Shown: piece after piece, positions 432 to 9,584 of the stretch
Layout of the letters: each line of letters starts with the position of its first letter
How positions within the stretch are numbered: position 1 is the first letter of the stretch
From: Candidatus Fermentibacterota bacterium
GTDB taxonomy: Bacteria; JAFGKV01
DNA: 9,711 nt
Assembly (NCBI GenBank): GCA_016928395.1
Contig: JAFGKV010000135.1
Span: 1-9,711 of the forward strand
Reading direction: 5' to 3'
Translations under genes and position numbers: made by a program
Notes under the pieces: model-generated
Databases searched by the model: none
What the model saw: the letters and a program-made list of their open reading frames with translations, nothing else
What the model was told of the DNA's origin: nothing

Positions 432-455
432 TACATACACGCGACGATGTATGTA
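432..455. promoter_or_regulatory. Operator-like palindrome overlapping the -35 block
   Basis: TACATACA (432-439) and TGTATGTA (448-455) form a perfect 8-bp inverted repeat around an 8-nt spacer. The right arm overlaps the first four bases of the proposed -35 block TGTAACC. The size and spacing (24 bp overall) fit a site for a dimeric repressor or activator. The corresponding promoter at 2364 lacks it, so any extra control would be specific to the sigma operon. Confidence 0.45.
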
Positions 456-480
456 ACCGCCCGGGCGATGCGTGCCACTA
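452..480 (+). promoter_or_regulatory. Proposed ECF-sigma promoter for the sigma operon
   Basis: TGTAACC (452-458) and GTGCCACTA (472-480) are separated by 13 bases. The same two blocks with the same gap occur at 2364-2392 before the export operon. TGTAAC is a known kind of ECF -35 element (compare Bacillus SigX). The second block would hold the -10, placing the transcript start near 485-490. This supports the downstream starts of the sigma gene (513 or 588) and argues against any start before the promoter. Autoregulation is typical of ECF factors. The motif is seen directly; its function is inferred. Confidence 0.65.
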
Positions 481-490
481 TCCTTAGTGG
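475..490. promoter_or_regulatory. Small palindrome at the -10 / transcript start
   Basis: CCACTA (475-480), TCCT, TAGTGG (485-490) is a perfect 6-bp inverted repeat. Its left arm is part of the proposed -10 block. It could be an operator half-site pair or a hairpin at the very 5' end of the transcript. It is absent from the sister promoter, where CCACTA is followed by unrelated sequence. Confidence 0.35.
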
Positions 491-587
491 ATGCGCCGAG
501 GGAAAGGCCACCATGGGCATCGATGGAGACCGAGACCATGAGCAGAAGAGTGGGAATGATGAGCCCGGATGTGAGGAGCGCCCCGTC

Positions 588-1214
588 ATGATCTCTTCAG
601 CGTCCGCCCTGGACGGGCGGTCAGCCGGCATTGTGGCGCATTCTCCCCCGAAAGCGCTGGTGCTTACCCTCGATCCGGATAGGGCGGATATCGATGCCTG
701 CCTCCGGGGCGAGCACGATGCGTTCGCCCGGATTGTTCGCCGGTATGAGCAGAGCATCGCTCGCCAGCTCTGGCGGTTCACCCGGGATCGCGATGAGTTG
801 GAGGATCTGATCCAGGAAGTCTTCGTCGAGGCATATCGGGGGCTGCGTTCATACCGGTCGAACGCGCCGTTGCTTCATTGGCTTCGCCGGATCGGCACGA
901 GGGTTGGCTATCGGCACTGGAAGAGGCGAGAGCGGGATGCTGCCGCAATCGACTGGGGCAGTGTGGAGGGCTTTCCGTCGCCCGAAGAGCAGGCCCCATC
1001 CGAAGCGGCCGAGTACCTTTTCCGGGTCTTCGGGCGGCTGCCGTCAGAAGATCGTCTCGTGCTGACGCTGCTCTATTTCGAGGAATGCTCCACCCAGGAA
1101 ATCGCAACCCGCACTGGTTGGAGCCGGGCCTTGGTGAAGGTCCGCGCCTTCAGGGCGCGGAAGAGACTCAAAGCCCTCATGGAACAGGCGGGGTATCGGG
1201 AGGTGACGCCATGA
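588..1214 (+). CDS. ECF-type RNA polymerase sigma-70 family sigma factor
   Basis: This 208-aa protein would direct RNA polymerase to stress-type promoters. Region 2 spans about residues 37-110 and includes DLIQEVFVEAYR (73-84), the core-binding helix signature. A linker follows, then region 4 at about 150-197 (LPSEDRLVLTLLYFEECSTQ, then EIATRTGWS and a basic recognition helix). Sigma-1 and sigma-3 regions are absent, as in ECF factors. ATG 588 is chosen because GAGGAG (573-578) lies 9 nt upstream. ATG 513 is an in-frame alternative with a weaker site. Starts further upstream, open back to 267, would precede the proposed promoter. The stop overlaps the next gene (ATGA), indicating translational coupling. 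The most likely targets are its own promoter and the export operon at 2448. The ECF subgroup cannot be assigned by eye. Confidence 0.93.
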   Translation: MISSASALDGRSAGIVAHSPPKALVLTLDPDRADIDACLRGEHDAFARIVRRYEQSIARQLWRFTRDRDELEDLIQEVFVEAYRGLRSYRSNAPLLHWLRRIGTRVGYRHWKRRERDAAAIDWGSVEGFPSPEEQAPSEAAEYLFRVFGRLPSEDRLVLTLLYFEECSTQEIATRTGWSRALVKVRAFRARKRLKALMEQAGYREVTP

Positions 1215-1468
1215 AGGATCCGCTCGTCTACGTTCAGCGGGTTGCGGAGAGGGCCCGTCTCGATGAGGCCCCAGTGGTACATGCCACTAACGGAGTGATG
1301 GCCGCGATCCGGGCCGAGCACTATCGACGCGATCGCGTGCTCCCGTGGATGGTTGCGGCCTCGGCCGCGGTCGCCGCGGGCATGTCGGCTCAGTTGTTCA
1401 CCATAGCGCGCGCTTTGAGCAACCCCCTGGCCACATTGTTTCACATGTCGGCCACGCTCATCCCCTGA
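1211..1468 (+). CDS. Small single-TM protein, candidate anti-sigma factor
   Basis: This is an 85-aa protein with no family I recognise by sequence. Residues 1-42 are hydrophilic and mixed-charge. Residues 43-63 (VLPWMVAASAAVAAGM and onward) form one transmembrane helix behind the basic cluster YRRDR, predicting a cytoplasmic N-terminus. About 20 residues would remain in the periplasm. The ATG overlaps the sigma stop as ATGA, the coupling usual for sigma/anti-sigma pairs. Size and layout (about 45 cytosolic residues, one TM, short periplasmic tail) match CnrY, the anti-sigma of the Cupriavidus cnr system. There is no zinc-finger (HxxxCxxC) anti-sigma motif, so the assignment rests on layout and position. 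It could instead be an unrelated membrane protein. Confidence 0.8.
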   Translation: MKDPLVYVQRVAERARLDEAPVVHATNGVMAAIRAEHYRRDRVLPWMVAASAAVAAGMSAQLFTIARALSNPLATLFHMSATLIP

Positions 1469-1477
1469 GAGGAAGCC

Positions 1478-1978
1478 ATGAGAGAGGAACACGCATCTGT
1501 TCAGTCCCCCAAGCGATTCCGCGGCCGAATGGCGCTGTACGGGGCTGTCCTCCTGATATGCGGCATGATCATCGGCGCTGGGGTGATGGCATCGGTGCTC
1601 TGGGAGCGTTTCCAGCATTCGGTGCGTGATCCAAAGGGGATGCCTGAACGCATTGCGGAGGACATGCGGCAAGGGCTCCAGTTGAGCGACGCGCAGGCCG
1701 ATCAAATCAAGGCTATCATGGAGCGGCACCGGGACGAGTTTGACGAGATTCGATCAGAGATGGAACCTCGGATACAGGCACACATGGATCAGGTCGATGC
1801 GGAGATCCGGGAAGTGCTTACGCCAGAGCAGCGAAGTGAGTGGGAACGCCGATTTGCCCGGGAGCGCCGCCGCTGGTCGCGGACTTCGGGCCAGTGGAAG
1901 GGGCCTCCCGGCCCTCCCGGCGAAGGAGGCCACCGGCCTCCTCCCCCTGGGCCTTTCCCTGACGAGGGCGACGAGTAG
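1478..1978 (+). CDS. Membrane-anchored Spy/CpxP/CnrX-like periplasmic sensor protein
   Basis: This 166-aa protein starts 9 nt after the previous stop, with GAGAGGAAG just before its ATG. Residues 18-41 form an N-terminal membrane anchor, with the rest predicted periplasmic. Residues 55-133 are charged and helical. LQLSDAQADQIKAI (67-80) and LTPEQRSEW (114-122) correspond to the paired LTxxQ motifs of the Spy/CpxP/ZraP heavy-metal-resistance superfamily, which also holds the sensor CnrX. His84 and His102 lie in the helices and could be ligands, but no metal site can be claimed. The tail (138-166) is Gly/Pro-rich. In CnrX-type systems such a protein senses the signal and acts on a small anti-sigma; the neighbours suggest that role. 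A plain periplasmic chaperone is the alternative. Confidence 0.85.
   Translation: MREEHASVQSPKRFRGRMALYGAVLLICGMIIGAGVMASVLWERFQHSVRDPKGMPERIAEDMRQGLQLSDAQADQIKAIMERHRDEFDEIRSEMEPRIQAHMDQVDAEIREVLTPEQRSEWERRFARERRRWSRTSGQWKGPPGPPGEGGHRPPPPGPFPDEGDE
1924..1942. other. Strong short hairpin at the 3' end of the Spy-like gene
   Basis: AGGAGGCC (1924-1931), ACC, GGCCTCCT (1935-1942) is a perfect 8-bp stem with a 3-nt loop inside the Gly/Pro-rich tail codons, 34 nt before the stop codon. It may stabilise or weakly terminate the transcript. No T-run follows, and it may simply reflect Gly/Pro codon composition. Confidence 0.35.
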
Positions 1979-2068
1979 GCTCTTTAGGACGCGAGCGAGG
2001 GTTTTGCGCCCCTCGACTCCGCCGAAGGTCAACGCCCTGAGAAGTAAAGAGGCGAAGAGGGCTGTCGA

Positions 2069-2082
2069 GTGAGGAGTGAGGA
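2069..2082. repeat. GTGAGGA heptamer pair
   Basis: Two tandem GTGAGGA units. The same heptamer recurs three times, with one variant, at 9613-9640 in the last spacer of the window. Confidence 0.7.
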
Positions 2083-2094
2083 GAAGGGCTTGGC

Positions 2095-2185
2095 CAGTCG
2101 GCAATAGGCAGTAGCCAGTAGCCAGTCGGCAGTCGGCAGTAGCCAGTCGGCAGTCATGAACTGAGAACTGCGAACTGCAAACTAC
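2095..2185. repeat. Heptamer array: nine CAGTNNN units then four GAACTGC-like units
   Basis: Thirteen contiguous 7-mers in a single phase: CAGTCGG, CAATAGG, CAGTAGC twice, CAGTCGG twice, CAGTAGC, CAGTCGG, CAGTCAT, then GAACTGA, GAACTGC twice, AAACTAC. Period 7 is incompatible with a coding repeat. The two sub-families share phase across their junction. The spacer 1979-2356 holds no credible gene. The long minus-strand frame across it is just the translated repeat. Confidence 0.8.
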
Positions 2186-2247
2186 GAGCGGAGCGAAGCA
2201 TCCATTCGTCCATTCATCCATTCCCGTCGTTCCTTCATTCCACCCCT

Positions 2248-2356
2248 GAACCCTGGGTACTGCTCGCGGAGCGAAGCCGAACCCCGAACCCTGAACCCTG
2301 CTCGCAAGGCGAGCTGAACCCTGAACCCCGAACCCTGGGTACTGCTCACGGAGCGA
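2248..2356. repeat. 27-nt direct repeat enclosing GAACCCT heptamers and a mini-hairpin
   Basis: A 27-nt sequence beginning GAACCCTGGGTACTGCTC is present at 2248-2274 and 2330-2356 with one substitution, 82 bases apart. Between the copies lie GAACCCC/GAACCCT heptamers (2279-2299 and 2316-2336). These are interrupted by a 6-bp hairpin, GCTCGC-AAG-GCGAGC (2300-2314). The second copy ends next to the lipoprotein promoter. Confidence 0.75.
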
Positions 2357-2363
2357 GCCGTCC

Positions 2364-2392
2364 TGTAACCAAAGACGGCGGCGGTGCCACTA
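2364..2392 (+). promoter_or_regulatory. Proposed ECF-sigma promoter for the export operon
   Basis: TGTAACC (2364-2370), 13 bases, GTGCCACTA (2384-2392) is the same bipartite motif as at 452-480, with 16 of 16 block positions identical and the gap equal. The 13-base gap itself is not conserved, as expected for a promoter spacer. A transcript start near 2398 would give a roughly 50-nt leader containing the strong ribosome site of the lipoprotein gene. The -35 block lies in the loop of a 6-bp inverted repeat, GCCGTC (2357-2362) / GACGGC (2374-2379). A second TGTAACC at 2399-2405 has no matching partner block. Confidence 0.65.
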
Positions 2393-2447: not shown

Positions 2448-3425
2448 GTGATTCGTCGAATCGCATCGTACGGAGTACTCATCATTCTGGTCAGCACATC
2501 GGGCTGCGGCGAAGAGCCCGTGGGGAGCACCTGGGCCAATACCCCGCCGATCATCGATGGCGACAGCGCCGACTGGCCGATGTCGCACATGACTTACGTG
2601 GAGAAGACACGGGGCGTTATCGGCGTCGCCAATGACGATTCGATGGTCTACCTGCTCTTCCGTTTCCGTGATCAGAATGCCGCCAGGAAGGCAATGGTGG
2701 GAGGGGCGACAGTGTGGTGGTCCCCCAGCGGGACGAAGGATCGTGAAGCGGGAATCCGTTTCTCTCCCACCATGTCCATTCGTGACGTCATGCCCGGACG
2801 GCCTCCCGAGGACTCGGAGCCGGATGATGATTCCGAGGGGAACTCCGCCGCTCCCGCACCTCAGTCTCCTCCCGGAGGATTCGGCGACAGGCAGGGATCG
2901 CATCGGGAAGGGCCCGGATGGATGCCGGGCCAAGGCTTCGGCCGGCCCGTTGTACCGACCCCTGAAGAGGGCACCTTGCACAGCGACATCAGGCTGGTGA
3001 CGGCCCAAGACCCGGCGGGCATCTCGGAGTTCGAGGCGCTGGGCTTGAGGGCGCAATCGACCTACAGGAAAGGGACCTATGCCTATGAACTGGCCATACC
3101 GCTCGGGGCAGCCGGCGAACTCGGGATCGGCGCTGCCGACGGCAAGGCTTTTCTCTCGGTGGTCGTGGGCGGGGTATCCGATGAGGACAGGGATTTCGTG
3201 AAACAGACCAGCTCTTCCAGGCAACGGCCGAGTCAGCCGCCTGAGGGCGCAGACGATAGATCCGGAGGTGGGCCGGGCGACGACGGGGGCATCGGCGCGA
3301 CTGGAGGGGGCCGAGGAGGGAGGGGACCCGGCGGTGGCCGACGAGGTATGCCCAACCCCATGGAGGATCTCCTGGAGACGATTGAGGCCTCCTTCACCAT
3401 CACTCTGGCCCATCGTACGAAATAG
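2448..3425 (+). CDS. Lipoprotein with CBM9/DOMON-like fold, function unknown
   Basis: This is a 325-aa protein starting at GTG 2448. Residues 1-20 are a compact lipoprotein signal (RR, hydrophobic stretch, then STSGC with Cys20 as the lipidated residue). IIDGDSADW (35-43), followed by a strand ending in YLLFRFRD (68-75) and the later YELAIPL (213-219), is the pattern of carbohydrate-binding family 9-like/DOMON beta-sandwiches. Residues 116-165 and 262-302 are Gly/Pro/Asp-rich, low-complexity insertions. It heads the export operon behind the proposed ECF promoter and could be an envelope accessory or substrate-binding component of the pump. No enzyme motif is visible and sugar binding is not implied. 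Expression is probably controlled by the upstream sigma factor. Confidence 0.85.
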   Translation: MIRRIASYGVLIILVSTSGCGEEPVGSTWANTPPIIDGDSADWPMSHMTYVEKTRGVIGVANDDSMVYLLFRFRDQNAARKAMVGGATVWWSPSGTKDREAGIRFSPTMSIRDVMPGRPPEDSEPDDDSEGNSAAPAPQSPPGGFGDRQGSHREGPGWMPGQGFGRPVVPTPEEGTLHSDIRLVTAQDPAGISEFEALGLRAQSTYRKGTYAYELAIPLGAAGELGIGAADGKAFLSVVVGGVSDEDRDFVKQTSSSRQRPSQPPEGADDRSGGGPGDDGGIGATGGGRGGRGPGGGRRGMPNPMEDLLETIEASFTITLAHRTK

Positions 3426-3563: not shown

Positions 3564-4928
3564 ATGAAGCGACTCGATAGGTTGACGCATAAGAGGGTGC
3601 CGGGAATGGCGGGGAGGGGCCGGGTGCTCGTGATCGCGATCTTTCTGGCGATCCAGACGGCGGCCGCGCATTCGTCGACCGTGCCGGACACTTTGGTGCT
3701 CTCGATGGAAGAGGCCCTGTCGGTTGCGCTGGCTCGCAATGTCGCCACACTGACCACGGGCGAGGCGGTGACGAGCCAGCAGGCAGCCCTCAACGAGTCA
3801 CGGTCGGCGTTTTTGCCCACAGCAAGTGCATCGGGATCATACTCCGATACGTGGGGAGAGCACGACGGGGGCCTTGCTGACGGAGGAGATGCTGCTCTGG
3901 GGGTCAGCATCACCGGATCTTGGACGATCTGGGACGGAGGCGGACGGTGGGCGGATCTTTCCCGTCAGTCAGCGGGTCTGCGCCGGGCGGAAGCATCGCT
4001 GTGGCGCACGAAACAGAGCGTGCTCCAGTCTGTCATCGAGGCATATCTCACGTTAGTCGAGGCCCTTCACTCCCTCGACAGTGCGGAGCAATCGCTCCAG
4101 CTGGCCCTGGCGACCAGCGAGAGAGTCTCCGGGTTGCTCAACGCAGGAAGGGCGACGGTCAGCGACGTGTTACGGGCGGATGTGAGTGTCGCGCAGCAGC
4201 GAACTGCCTTGGTGCGCTCTCGCAACGAGGTAGATACGGCCCGCCGCGAGCTGTCGGATCTGCTGGGAGGCCCTCCCCTGATTATGGTGCCTGTGGAGCC
4301 GGAGTTCGACCCTGTCACACTCCTGGCTGCGCCACTTCCTGATGGCGCGGAGGAGTCGACTCCCTCGGTGGCCATCGCCGAGGCGTCGCTGGCGCAGGCC
4401 CGCGCAGCCACCCAGGGGCAGAAATCACGCTTTCTTCCGCGGCTGAGCGCTTCGGCAACCTCGTCCTGGAGTGAGCAGGGGGGGAAGCTCGGGGAGCCCA
4501 ATCGCCGGGGATCACTCGCGCTCGGCTGGTCTCTGTTTGAAGGCGGCGCCCGCTGCTTCGCCCTCCAGGGCGCACGGGCATCCGAGCGAAGCGCGAACTG
4601 GGATCTGCAGGATACACGACGCCAAGCACGGAGTGACCTCCACCAGGCCGTGGCCGACATGCATGCGGCCGAAGCTCAGTGGGAAGCCGCGAAGCAGACC
4701 GTTGCCTTGGCCGAGGATTCCTATGCGCAGGAGACTGAGTTGTACAACCTGGGGCGCGCTACGTCGCTGGAAATCCTCACCGCACTGGACACGCTGAACG
4801 AATCGCGACGGGAGGAGATCGGCTCCCGCTACCAGATCCTACGTGCCTATGCGCGGCTGCGCGCAGTCCGCGGCACGCTCAATGCTGCCATGTTCAAAGG
4901 CAGCCACCTGCAGCCGGAGGCGATCTGA
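3564..4928 (+). CDS. TolC-family outer-membrane efflux channel
   Basis: This 454-aa protein is predicted to be the outer-membrane exit duct of the tripartite pump. A signal peptide covers about residues 1-36 (basic start, hydrophobic VLVIAIFLAIQTAAA). Two OEP repeats follow: one begins near LSMEEALSVALARN (about 46-59) and the second near VAIAEASLAQARAA (about 270-283). Each contains a beta-strand segment of the FLPxxSASxSxS type and long coiled-coil helices (EAYLTLVEALHSLDSAEQSL and similar). The length matches the family. AGGAAG precedes the ATG; Met15 (3606) is a less likely alternative start. The adaptor gene follows after a single base. The substrate cannot be read from the sequence. Confidence 0.93.
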   Translation: MKRLDRLTHKRVPGMAGRGRVLVIAIFLAIQTAAAHSSTVPDTLVLSMEEALSVALARNVATLTTGEAVTSQQAALNESRSAFLPTASASGSYSDTWGEHDGGLADGGDAALGVSITGSWTIWDGGGRWADLSRQSAGLRRAEASLWRTKQSVLQSVIEAYLTLVEALHSLDSAEQSLQLALATSERVSGLLNAGRATVSDVLRADVSVAQQRTALVRSRNEVDTARRELSDLLGGPPLIMVPVEPEFDPVTLLAAPLPDGAEESTPSVAIAEASLAQARAATQGQKSRFLPRLSASATSSWSEQGGKLGEPNRRGSLALGWSLFEGGARCFALQGARASERSANWDLQDTRRQARSDLHQAVADMHAAEAQWEAAKQTVALAEDSYAQETELYNLGRATSLEILTALDTLNESRREEIGSRYQILRAYARLRAVRGTLNAAMFKGSHLQPEAI

Positions 4929-4929
4929 C

Positions 4930-6288
4930 ATGGGGAAATATCCAGGCAAGGGCAAGAAATGGCTGATCGGAGCCATCGTTGTGATCGGTGTCACGGCAGG
5001 AATCCTGGTGGCTCGCGGCCTGCGTCGTTCGGGCGGTGCCGCTGGGTATGAATTCACAATGATCGAGCGAGGAACCCTGGAGAACATCATCTCTGGCACC
5101 GGTTCACTCCAGGCCGTGGGCACCGTGGAGGTCGGCACGCAGGTATCCGGCACCATTGATACCATCTTGGTTGACTACAACGACCATGTCCATCGAGGGC
5201 AGGTGCTGGCAGTACTTGACACGACCTTCCTATCGGCCGGAGTCCGCGAGGCGCGCGCGGGCGTCCTGCGGGCACAGTCAGAGTATGAACGCGCACGGCG
5301 TGAATACGAGCGCGACAAGGATCTCTATGCGAAGCACTTCGTCACCGAGGTGCAGTATCTGGACTCCAAGACCTCCGTAGAAACTGCCCGGGCAAGCCTT
5401 CTCTCGGCAGAAGCGAGCCTCGACCGGGCAGAGGCGAATCTTCGCTACGCGGTGATCACATCGCCTATCGAGGGCACGGTCATTCAACGAAACAACGAAC
5501 CCGGCCAGACCGTTGCCGCAAGCCTCTCGGCGCCCACCCTGTTCCTCATCGCCGAAGACCTTGCCACCATGGAGATCCTGGGGCTGGTGGACGAGAGCGA
5601 CATCGGCTCGATCCGGGAGAAGATGCCGGTCAGATTCACGGTGGTGGCGTACCCTGACAGGGAGTTCGAGGGAACGGTGCGACAGATCAGGCTGCAGCCG
5701 GCGACAGTGCAGAATGTGGTCAACTACACCGTGGTCATCGATGCGCCCAACGGGGATGAACTGCTCCTTCCCGGCATGACCGCGACTGTTGACTTCATCG
5801 TCGAACGGGTCGTGGACACACTACTGGCGCCCAATGCAGCGCTTCGATTTCAGCCCACCGAGGTTATGGTTCAGACATTGCGGGACGCCGCCGAAAAGCG
5901 CATGAGCGACCTGCCGGATTCCCTTCGTGCACGGTTTGCAGAACGCAGGGAGCGCCTCGGAGCGGAGGCGGGAGGATTCCCCGGGCGGGCAGCCAGGGGC
6001 GGCGGAGTCGCCGACATGGCCCAGCTCTGGGTTCTGGATGAGCAGGGGAATCTTGCCATGGTGCCCGTACGCAAAGGCCCCACCGATGGCGCGAAGACCG
6101 TCATCACGCCCCTCCGCCCTCAGGGGCCGCCCAGCGGTGAGCTTGCCATAATGCCTCAGCCCGGCATTGTCGTGAAGGAGGGCCTCTCTGTGATCAGTGG
6201 CGTGAAAAAGGCGCAGGCCTCGGCGCAGGCCAAGAGCAACGCGGCCTTCTCCCAGCGGTTCGGCGGCCCCCCGGGGCCTCCCCGGTAG
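4930..6288 (+). CDS. macA: MacA/HlyD-type periplasmic adaptor subunit
   Basis: This 452-aa membrane-fusion protein bridges the inner-membrane ABC permease and the TolC-like channel. Its order is: one N-terminal TM helix (11-28), then the first lipoyl half at about 60-95 (GTVEVGTQVSGTIDTILVDY, GQVLAVLD). Next come an alpha-helical hairpin (about 100-170), the second lipoyl half with SPIEGTVIQRNNEPGQTV (about 180-197), a beta-barrel (to about 305) and a membrane-proximal domain. An Arg/Gly-rich insertion of about 50 residues (about 322-375) interrupts the last domain. The tail ends GGPPGPPR. ATG 4930 starts one base after the tolC-like stop, with GGAGG at 4916-4920, so in-frame starts inside the tolC-like gene are rejected. 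The macA symbol is by family, not strict orthology. Confidence 0.92.
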   Translation: MGKYPGKGKKWLIGAIVVIGVTAGILVARGLRRSGGAAGYEFTMIERGTLENIISGTGSLQAVGTVEVGTQVSGTIDTILVDYNDHVHRGQVLAVLDTTFLSAGVREARAGVLRAQSEYERARREYERDKDLYAKHFVTEVQYLDSKTSVETARASLLSAEASLDRAEANLRYAVITSPIEGTVIQRNNEPGQTVAASLSAPTLFLIAEDLATMEILGLVDESDIGSIREKMPVRFTVVAYPDREFEGTVRQIRLQPATVQNVVNYTVVIDAPNGDELLLPGMTATVDFIVERVVDTLLAPNAALRFQPTEVMVQTLRDAAEKRMSDLPDSLRARFAERRERLGAEAGGFPGRAARGGGVADMAQLWVLDEQGNLAMVPVRKGPTDGAKTVITPLRPQGPPSGELAIMPQPGIVVKEGLSVISGVKKAQASAQAKSNAAFSQRFGGPPGPPR

Positions 6289-6294
6289 CGCTTC

Positions 6295-7062
6295 ATGCAT
6301 CCCGTCATCGACACCCGCGGTCTCTCCAAGACCTACCAGATGGGGCGCGTCGAAGTGCCGGCGCTACGGGACGCGACCTTCACGGTGGAGCGGGGGGAGT
6401 TCGTGGCCATCATGGGGGCATCGGGCTCGGGAAAGTCGACACTGATGAACCTGCTCGGGTGCCTGGATACCCCGACGGCTGGCGAGTACCATCTCGACGG
6501 CATCAATACCGCCGGCCTGTCTCGCAATGCGTATGCAGACATTCGCAATCGCAAGATCGGCTTCGTGTTCCAGGGGTTCAACCTTCTGGCCCGCACGTCG
6601 GCCCTGGAGAATGTCGAGCTTCCGCTCTTGTATGACCGGTCGGGCCGGGAGTTCGATCCGCCCAAGGCGGCGCAGAGCGCCCTTGAGCTGGTCGGCTTGG
6701 GCGATCGCCTCACCCATGAGTCGAACCAGCTCTCAGGCGGAGAACAGCAGCGGGTCGCCATCGCCCGCGCTCTGGTCAATGAACCCGCCCTCGTTTTGGC
6801 CGACGAGCCCACCGGCAACCTCGACTCACGAACATCGGTCGAGATCATGTTCATGCTGCAGGGCTTGAACGCACAGGGCATCACCATCCTGCTGGTGACC
6901 CATGAGCAGGACATATCTCTCTTCACGAAGCGGATCGTGCGTCTTCACGACGGAAGGATCATCAAAGACGAACCCGTGCACCACCGGACGACCCGCGAAG
7001 AAGCCATGGCCCAGCTCGATGCTCGCGGTCAGAGTCTCGGAGAAGGGAGGGATGGGTCATGA
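6295..7062 (+). CDS. macB: MacB/LolD-type ABC transporter ATPase
   Basis: This 255-aa ATPase powers the pump from the cytoplasmic face. All motifs are intact: Walker A GASGSGKST (41-49), Q-loop Gln93, signature LSGGEQQ (146-152), Walker B ALVLADEP with catalytic Glu171, D-loop NLDS, and switch His203 in LLVTHEQD. The sequence belongs to the MacB/LolD mechanotransmission class. In E. coli MacB this domain is fused to the permease. Here it is a separate gene whose stop overlaps the permease start (ATGA). It starts 6 nt after the adaptor stop and lacks a clear ribosome site, so translational coupling is likely. The substrate is unknown. Confidence 0.94.
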   Translation: MHPVIDTRGLSKTYQMGRVEVPALRDATFTVERGEFVAIMGASGSGKSTLMNLLGCLDTPTAGEYHLDGINTAGLSRNAYADIRNRKIGFVFQGFNLLARTSALENVELPLLYDRSGREFDPPKAAQSALELVGLGDRLTHESNQLSGGEQQRVAIARALVNEPALVLADEPTGNLDSRTSVEIMFMLQGLNAQGITILLVTHEQDISLFTKRIVRLHDGRIIKDEPVHHRTTREEAMAQLDARGQSLGEGRDGS

Positions 7063-8276
7063 AGTGGTCGAGCCTTCCCAAGGTCGCGGTACGAAGCCTG
7101 CTGAAGAACAAGATGCGCAGCCTGTTGACCTCACTGGGCATCATCATCGGTGTCGGCGCCGTCATCATCATGGTCGCCATCGGTGAAGGCTCGCAAGTTG
7201 CCATCGCGGAGACCATCAACTCCCTGGGCACCAACATGATCATGATCCGTCCCAGTTTCAGCAGGATGGGCGGGGTAAGCCGGGGCGCCGGAAGCCACAA
7301 TCGCCTCACCATGGATGACGCGGAGACGCTCAAGAGCGAAGCGACGCTCTGCCGGTGGGTGTCGCCGGTGGTGAGCTCCGGCGATCAGGTCATCGGCGGC
7401 GCGGGGAACTGGAACACCAGCATCATGGGTGTCGATGTTGACTATCTCAGTATCAGGGCCTGGGAATTGACGTCCGGCGAATTCTTCACCGAGCGTGACG
7501 TGCGCGCCCGGGCAAAGGTCGCCGTCTTGGGGAAGACGGTCGCCGATGAGCTATTCCCGGGGCAGGACCCAGTGGGAGAGAGACTTCGCATCAGGAACAC
7601 GCCCTTCATGGTCATCGGTCTGCTAACCGAGAAGGGAGAAGATGCCATGGGCAGGGACGAGGATGACGTCGTGATGGCCCCCTCCACCACGGTGTTCTAC
7701 CGCCTCAGCGGTGGGGGTCGCATCCACATGATCGTCGCCAGCGCGGTGTCGCCCGACAGCCTGGAAGCCGCCCAGGAGCAGATTATTGGCCTGATGCGAA
7801 CCGCTCACAAGCTTGCTCCGGCAGAGGATGATGACTTCGCAGTCAATACACAGACGGAGATCGTCGAGCGGGCATCGGAGACGGCCCAGGTCATGACCGT
7901 GCTCCTGGGGTCCATCGCGGCAGTCTCGCTGCTGGTAGGCGGTATCGGGATCATGAACATCATGCTGGTCTCGGTGACGGAGCGAACCAGGGAGATCGGC
8001 ATCCGCATGTCAGTGGGCGGCCGTGGTAGTGACATCCTGCTCCAGTTTCTGGCCGAGGCCATCCTGCTGAGCCTCGTCGGAGGCATCATCGGCATCCTGC
8101 TCGCCTTCGGTATTGCATATGCACTGGAGCACATCTGGCATATTCGAACCGTCATCGACCCCGCCATGACCGTTCTGGCCTTCAGTTTCTCCGGAGTGGT
8201 GGGTGTCTTCTTCGGCCTGTACCCGGCCCGGAAGGCCGCCGCGCTCAACCCCATCGATGCGTTGAGACACGAGTAG
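7059..8276 (+). CDS. MacB-type ABC transporter permease (FtsX family)
   Basis: This 405-aa inner-membrane subunit has one TM helix near the N-terminus (about 22-44, LLTSLGIIIGVGAVIIMVAI). A periplasmic MacB-PCD-like domain of about 230 residues follows, then three C-terminal TM helices (about 279-302, 332-354, 367-388). The FtsX hallmark IMLVSVTERTREIGIRMSVG follows TM2. The protein ends with the usual YPARKAAALNPIDALRHE. This is the full length for a stand-alone MacB-type permease. With the ATPase, adaptor and TolC-like channel it completes a type VII-like mechanotransmission ABC exporter, which moves substrates from periplasm to outside. The overlap with the ATPase gene (ATGA) implies matched expression. 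Confidence 0.94.
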   Translation: MKWSSLPKVAVRSLLKNKMRSLLTSLGIIIGVGAVIIMVAIGEGSQVAIAETINSLGTNMIMIRPSFSRMGGVSRGAGSHNRLTMDDAETLKSEATLCRWVSPVVSSGDQVIGGAGNWNTSIMGVDVDYLSIRAWELTSGEFFTERDVRARAKVAVLGKTVADELFPGQDPVGERLRIRNTPFMVIGLLTEKGEDAMGRDEDDVVMAPSTTVFYRLSGGGRIHMIVASAVSPDSLEAAQEQIIGLMRTAHKLAPAEDDDFAVNTQTEIVERASETAQVMTVLLGSIAAVSLLVGGIGIMNIMLVSVTERTREIGIRMSVGGRGSDILLQFLAEAILLSLVGGIIGILLAFGIAYALEHIWHIRTVIDPAMTVLAFSFSGVVGVFFGLYPARKAAALNPIDALRHE

Positions 8277-8555: not shown

Positions 8556-9584
8556 ATGACGACGGACAGGACACACGCACGGGTCTGGTGGGCGGCCTTT
8601 TTCCTGGCAGTGCTCTTCCATGGGCTCGTGGTGCTCCTCGTGAATCTTGGGAGGCCCTTCGCCCCCCGCGAGGCCATGGCTGCCCCGCCACAGCCCATCG
8701 AGCTTGTCTTCGCCGCTTCGGCGGAGGAACCCCCTGCCCGCAGCGAACCCTCGTTTTTCAGCGAGCTTCCCCCGGATCGAGCCGACGAACCGCCCCAGCG
8801 GCCGGATTTCCTGAGCACGGTCGACAGCCGCGCCCGCGATCTCGTTCCCGATGGCGACGAAGCCATGCCGCTGCTGGCCGGCCTGTCGGAAGCCCCCCAC
8901 ATACGCATCGATCCGGGTACCGATGGGCTCACCGGCGCAGACGTGCCGGCCGAGCAGTGGCAGGAACCCGCGCCTCTCGACAGGCCGCAGGAGAGCCGCC
9001 AGCCGGCACAGGAGCCCGACCCCGCCTCGCTTCAGGTTCTTCACGAAGAAGACACCGTCCTCTCGCCGGATCGAGCCGATGCGCCGGGAGGCGCCTCCCG
9101 GGAGGCGCCATCGCTTGAGCCCCCCAGTTCCCTGGATCCTCGGGCATCCGCGTTCCAGCCCCAGGTTCCCCCCCGCGGGTTGGCTCGGAGGCCAGGTACG
9201 GACTTTTACCAGGTTGAAATGCACCGGCCCGAGGGGAATGCGGCCCTTCCCGGCTCCATCAGCCTCAATACCGTTGCCTGGGCGTATGCGCCGTGGCTTT
9301 CCGAGTTCTCCCGCAGACTGCAGCGAAGCTGGTTGGCCCCGGTGGCCTACTATATGGGCATCATCGACGGCGTCACGGAGATCGAGATGGAAGTGGCCCG
9401 GGACGGTGCGCTCATGCGTCTAGTCGTCCTCAATGCCAAAGGCCACGATTCCCTCCGCGAGACGAGCGTCTCGGTTCTGGAAGCCATCGCTCCCTATCGA
9501 CCCCTGCCGGATGACTTCCCCGAGAAAAGCCTCATCCTGCGGATCACTCTGGTGTATCCCTCCCTGCGCTCCCGGGGACGATGA
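8556..9584 (+). CDS. TonB-like energy transducer protein
   Basis: This is a 342-aa protein. Residues 10-30 (VWWAAFFLAVLFHGLVVLLV) form one N-terminal TM helix with His22 in the place of the functional His of TonB. The Ser four residues earlier in E. coli TonB is Ala18 here. A Pro/Glu/Asp-rich periplasmic linker runs to about 225. The C-terminal domain starts at SISLNTVAWAYAPWLSEFSR, then LQRSWLAP, a beta-alpha-beta TonB-type core (TEIEMEVARDGALMRLVVLNAKGHDSLRETSVSVLEA) and APYRPLPDDF. It would carry proton-motive-force energy from an ExbBD-like motor to outer-membrane receptors; neither is in the window. The ribosome site is weak (TTGGGAA). The 280-nt repeat-filled gap suggests a transcript separate from the pump. 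A TolA/AgmX-like role is the alternative. Confidence 0.8.
   Translation: MTTDRTHARVWWAAFFLAVLFHGLVVLLVNLGRPFAPREAMAAPPQPIELVFAASAEEPPARSEPSFFSELPPDRADEPPQRPDFLSTVDSRARDLVPDGDEAMPLLAGLSEAPHIRIDPGTDGLTGADVPAEQWQEPAPLDRPQESRQPAQEPDPASLQVLHEEDTVLSPDRADAPGGASREAPSLEPPSSLDPRASAFQPQVPPRGLARRPGTDFYQVEMHRPEGNAALPGSISLNTVAWAYAPWLSEFSRRLQRSWLAPVAYYMGIIDGVTEIEMEVARDGALMRLVVLNAKGHDSLRETSVSVLEAIAPYRPLPDDFPEKSLILRITLVYPSLRSRGR

Follow-up and report, generated by a model that had tools for sequence, protein, structure and literature searches.

A candidate autoregulated ECF sigma factor module with a second predicted promoter before a MacAB-TolC-type pump operon in Candidatus Fermentibacterota

In Cupriavidus metallidurans, the sigma factor CnrH is paired with the anti-sigma factor CnrY and the sensor CnrX and drives cnrYp and cnrCp (PMC9045368). 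Caulobacter sigma-F controls a small ECF regulon, in which the promoters of its own operon and of another unit closely resemble each other (PMC3511200). Moreover, an Azospirillum operon encodes, in order, RpoE8, a hypothetical protein and a periplasmic heavy metal sensor (PMC12826043). An AAC in the -35 element is a hallmark of ECF promoters. The CGT-type -10 element is a hallmark drawn from a small, early studied subset and is common, not defining (PMC8103513).

The window is the whole stretch of DNA analysed here, 9,711 nucleotides of a contig from a Candidatus Fermentibacterota bacterium. It contains TGTAACC-N13-GTGCCACTA at 452-480 and at 2364-2392, with both blocks and the gap length identical, and each exact site precedes the first gene of one of two adjacent units. 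This pair had been reported in a preliminary description of the sequence, and its coordinates, blocks and gap length all match. The description also held that there is no third copy. That stands for the window, where a pattern search tolerating up to 3 mismatches found 0 further copies, and for exact copies in the organism's own genome (G000; 4,794,814 bases, spacers 11-18), where the proposed genome scan returned only these two; but once mismatches were allowed, a relaxed third copy, TGTAACC-N16-CCACCA, was found on another contig (G000:C260:40495-40523). Shuffled sequences held a mean of 0.03 copies of the TGTAACC-N13-GTGCCACTA pattern and none held two, and reversed-pattern controls across G000 (spacers 11-18) gave 0 matches. 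Searches of the window for Rfam families and for sigma-70 promoters returned no match, and terminator-like matches amounted to two weak ones that overlap on the minus strand, which is not above the level in shuffles. Near the beginning of the window, TGTACTCTCARACAAGTC occurs at 65-82 and 231-248. It belongs to an interspersed repeat: with up to 2 mismatches allowed, the same genome has 45 copies, many of them near contig ends, the sister species has 2, G002 has 16 and reversed controls have 0.

When the sites before orthologous genes are aligned, conservation between species covers TGTAACC and (C)CACTA, rather than the longer second block; the GTG that precedes CCACTA in the motif first described varies. 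The first of the two end blocks proposed earlier is thus retained, and the second is redrawn to a predicted -10 core of (C)CACTA. In these terms P1, the predicted ECF promoter of the sigma operon, lies at 452..480 on the plus strand, with a -35 of TGTAACC (452-458), N16 and a -10 of CCACTA (475-480). P2, the predicted ECF promoter of the pump operon, lies at 2364..2392 on the same strand (TGTAACC 2364-2370, N16, CCACTA 2387-2392). The locus shows an ECF trait in that one -35/-10 motif, with AAC in its -35, stands before the sigma factor's own operon and its candidate targets. The CGT-type -10 is absent, with CCACTA in its place. The -10 of Caulobacter sigma-F is CGAA, which also differs from the CACTA found here.

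The first unit begins with an ECF sigma factor gene at 588..1214 (plus strand) that encodes 208 aa with regions 2 and 4 only, a trait of ECF (group 4) sigma factors (Pfam Sigma70_r2, 3.5e-11; Sigma70_r4_2, 3.8e-13). The protein matches SigH, RpoE and CnrH in the PDB and is 40-74% identical to 18 orthologues. The gene start had been placed downstream of about 490, and ATG 588 agrees with this placement. GAGGAG lies ~9-14 bases upstream and the sister species has an equivalent ATG, so that ATG 588 appears to fit better than any upstream candidate. In the sister species, the sigma factor is 74% identical, the gene order is the same through the pump, and TGTAACC-N16-CCACTA is found before the sigma gene (L014:1382-1410).

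A scan of genome contigs yielded 17 close sigma orthologues, nearly all from Hydrogenedentota and Planctomycetota. Conservation was scored out of 13 for TGT(A/T)ACC-N15/16-CCACTA in the 340 bp upstream of 18 orthologues (sister species, Hydrogenedentota and Planctomycetota), with 1080 stretches from the same loci as controls. Scores of at least 11/13 were reached by 14 of 18 orthologues versus 0.37% of the control stretches, scores of at least 12/13 by 12 of 18 versus 0.2%, and the full 13/13 by 6 of 18 versus none. Four orthologues (L033, L042, L046 and L047) have no strong site within 340 bp: in L033 a site lies 2.4 kb upstream of sigma, before a possible operon, L046 has a diverged form, and no site was found upstream of sigma in L042 and L047. 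A whole-genome search for TGTWACC-N15/16-CCACTA gave 12 exact matches in 20 genomes. Ten of these matches are located in the window or next to the sigma gene; the other two (G098 and G102) fall in or adjoin unrelated coding regions and were treated as chance hits. A search with the reversed control pattern yielded about the same number, so the background is not zero, and the evidence lies in where the matches fall. For the sigma gene, the motif is neither absent before the orthologues nor scattered through coding regions, two of the outcomes that the preliminary description had named as telling against it. Because the motif is conserved before sigma orthologues, the earlier proposal that the sigma factor drives its own synthesis is supported, and P1 is almost certainly a sigma promoter of its own operon.

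The aligned sites fall into two types. The window's clade has TGTAACC-N16-(C)CACTA, and most Planctomycetota have TGTTACC-N15-CCACTA. On the sigma protein tree, these A/N16 and T/N15 types are split by a single change. Residue 185, in region 4, is Val in all A/N16 members and Thr or Met in all T/N15 members, without exception among the 16 classed sigma proteins of alignment A3. This residue is offered as a lead to what may determine the fourth -35 base and the spacer; since the split amounts to one evolutionary event, it is not proof of contact. Dimeric regulators also have bipartite motifs with fixed spacing, and the sites could in principle be bound by some other DNA-binding regulator instead of being recognised by the sigma factor. 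However, the halves of the motif are neither palindromic nor direct repeats and have the geometry of a -35 and a -10, the motif is co-conserved with the sigma gene itself across two phyla, and the spacing and fourth -35 base shift together with the sigma clade. Such a regulator is consequently very improbable, and recognition by the sigma factor is the preferred reading.

The sigma gene heads a conserved trio. After it come genes for a short protein that crosses the membrane once and for a periplasmic protein that is membrane-anchored and Spy/CpxP-like. The second gene (1211..1468, plus strand) overlaps the sigma stop codon and encodes an 85 aa protein with a single TM segment and a CnrY-like layout, for which no Pfam family reached cut-off. 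A single-TM protein of ~85-99 aa directly follows sigma in 19 of 19 loci (alignment A2). The third gene (1478..1978, plus strand) encodes a membrane-anchored periplasmic helical protein of 166 aa that is Spy/CpxP/LTXXQ-like. Its matches are to LTXXQ (3.5e-5, just above cut-off), Metal_resist (1.8e-5, below cut-off) and NCBIfam Spy (1.4e-6, far below cut-off), and the profile of its family matches E. coli Spy (2.6e-6) and, weakly, CpxP in the PDB. Neither Foldseek nor VIA-align found a useful PDB match for a structure model of this protein (pLDDT 79.7, pTM 0.46). In the sequence available, a membrane-anchored helical protein was called in 15 of 19 loci. Because the layout resembles CnrYXH, we infer that the 85 aa protein is a probable anti-sigma factor and the 166 aa protein a probable sensor.

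Given the same components as CnrYXH, a weak Metal_resist match for 9 of the 15 sensor orthologues, and the precedent of CnrH, which likewise acts on an efflux operon as well as its own (PMC9045368), the module might be a true metal-sensing CnrYXH system (nickel, cobalt or zinc) with a different pump. The invariant residues of the sensor family are G29, G33, L114 and the start Met (alignment A1). No His, Cys or further Met is invariant, which argues against metal sensing of the CnrX type, and the best sequence matches of the sensor are Spy and CpxP. Metal sensing is for these reasons unlikely, and a Spy-like envelope sensor is preferred.

The second unit is a lipoprotein-TolC-MacA-MacB operon, and P2 lies ~55 bp before its first gene. 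All genes are on the plus strand. The first encodes a lipoprotein of unknown function with no Pfam family (2448..3425); it starts at GTG 2448 after AAGGAGGAG, and the sister-species orthologue likewise starts at GTG, after GGAGG. The others encode a TolC-family outer-membrane efflux protein (3564..4928; Pfam OEP, 1.5e-56), a MacA/HlyD-type periplasmic adaptor (4927..6288; HlyD_D23, 2.2e-15; start approximate, with an open frame back to 4843), a MacB-type ABC ATPase (6295..7062; ABC_tran, 4.7e-32; MacB N-terminal half, 4.3e-70, below the full-length cut-off) and a MacB-type permease (7059..8276; MacB_PCD, 3.9e-49; FtsX, 6e-18). All parts of a MacAB-TolC tripartite exporter are therefore present: the MacA adaptor, the MacB ATPase with periplasmic core/FtsX domains, and the TolC-type channel. 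The ATPase and permease are two genes here, whereas they are fused in E. coli MacB. After the pump, a 342 aa protein (8556-9584) has an N-terminal membrane segment and a proline-rich middle and is TonB-like by eye; it is conserved in the sister species (54%) and has no Pfam or NCBIfam match.

The preliminary description had tied the sigma factor to this pump. The second exact copy speaks for the tie, as does a parallel arrangement in L046 described below, but the site is missing from the pump leader of the sister species, which makes the pump link lineage-specific. There, the gene order is the same and the pump genes begin only ~190 bp after the sensor gene, as would be expected if P1 alone worked, P2 had arisen by chance or had decayed, and transcription of the pump came from read-through or another promoter. 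This account has a small share of the probability: P2 equals P1 in all 16 specified bases and in the spacer, it is one of only two exact genome copies and sits just ahead of the first pump gene, and L046 independently shows the same coupling. P2 is thus very likely to be a sigma-dependent promoter of the pump operon. The spacer before P2 (2093-2356) consists of short degenerate repeats (GCCAGTCGGCAGT..., CCCTGAACCCTGGG...) that are missing from the shorter sister-species spacer, and P2 may have arrived with this repeat expansion.

L046, a Hydrogenedentota contig, carries a divergent sigma orthologue between a TolC-type gene and MacA-MacB genes. Within 16.5 kb it has exactly three copies of TGTAAC-N18-CAC, one each ahead of the sigma, TolC and MacA genes. 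With other spacers the mean is 0.11 matches over this length, an expectation that understates the freedom of choice as the pattern was defined after viewing L046, though its spacing is fixed by the window sites. L046 is, on its sites and gene order, an apparent independent repeat of the sigma-MacAB coupling. In the window's own genome, the relaxed C260 site is found ~200 bp before an operon encoding an HlyD-type adaptor, an AcrB-family pump and an outer-membrane efflux protein. The RND pump orthologues of the sister species (72% identity) and of the same-family genome G002 are without the motif; we regard a sigma promoter of this RND pump operon as reasonably likely. In four Phycisphaerae-type loci, a divergent copy of the site on the minus strand faces away from sigma (L036, 7610; L037, 6888; L038, 7749; L039, 7678). 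In L036, L038 and L039 it faces a gene for a small secreted protein followed by type II secretion genes; Pfam identified these in L036, and in L038 and L039 they were recognised by eye from their similarity. This suggests that the sigma factor has a different candidate regulon in Phycisphaerae, composed of a periplasmic/secreted protein and type II secretion. With the pump sites missing from the sister species and the Phycisphaerae site placed before another unit, the self-promoter appears to be conserved and the targets to change between lineages.

What the DNA shows directly is the pair of sites, the way these are conserved along with the sigma gene, and the recurring trio of genes; from these we infer a signal and actual transcription as follows. 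The membrane-anchored Spy/CpxP-like periplasmic protein and the short single-pass protein would keep the ECF sigma factor inactive. Upon an envelope signal, the sigma factor would be released, bind RNA polymerase and start transcription at TGTAACC-N16-CCACTA. At P1 it would amplify its own operon, and at P2 it would turn on the adjacent export operon; from the weaker C260 site, it would probably turn on the distant RND pump operon. As a whole, the locus is with high probability an envelope-stress/efflux module in which an autoregulated ECF sigma factor has a second promoter before a MacAB-TolC-type pump. The ECF regulon of sigma gene and adjacent export operon proposed in the preliminary description was right in substance, given the two sites and the orthologue conservation.

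More tentatively, and a little short of an even chance, these loci may represent an ECF subfamily that spans phyla and is so far undescribed, with Spy-like sensing of the envelope, a deeply conserved self-promoter, a repeatedly rewired output and a residue 185 that tracks the fourth -35 base and spacer. Its outputs would be pumps of the MacAB and RND types in this lineage, MacAB-TolC, independently, in L046, and a periplasmic protein with type II secretion in Phycisphaerae. An open-access literature search found no paper joining an ECF sigma factor, MacAB and a TGTAACC-N16-CCACTA promoter. The result gives uncultured phyla a specific pairing of sigma factor and promoter that can be put to the test, with its recognition sequence defined. 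In addition, a MacAB-type exporter would be tied to envelope sensing by a CnrYXH-like module without metal ligands, and the family illustrates how targets can shift from one lineage to another while the regulator itself stays conserved.

Among described systems, CnrYXH has a matching three-part layout: a sigma factor, a short single-pass protein (the anti-sigma factor CnrY there, the 85 aa probable anti-sigma factor here) and a membrane-anchored helical periplasmic sensor, the last represented here by a TM segment and an LTXXQ/Metal_resist-like domain. There, as predicted here, the sigma factor serves the operon that encodes it and a neighbouring trans-envelope efflux operon (PMC9045368). The two differ in gene order (sigma-Y-X here, Y-X-H there), in the adjacent pump (MacAB-type ABC rather than CnrCBA) and in the sensor, which has no conserved metal ligands here; profile searches of the PDB with the trio families found no CnrY or CnrX chain. 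In sequence, the sensor domain comes nearest to Spy, of the Spy/CpxP periplasmic chaperones and stress sensors of the Cpx/Bae responses, but is membrane-anchored and paired with an ECF sigma factor rather than a two-component system. Caulobacter sigma-F is alike in its small regulon and matching promoters, and the string GTAACC occurs in its description (PMC3511200), though its other targets differ. The Azospirillum RpoE8 operon has the same three-gene order, a likeness by annotation rather than by sequence.
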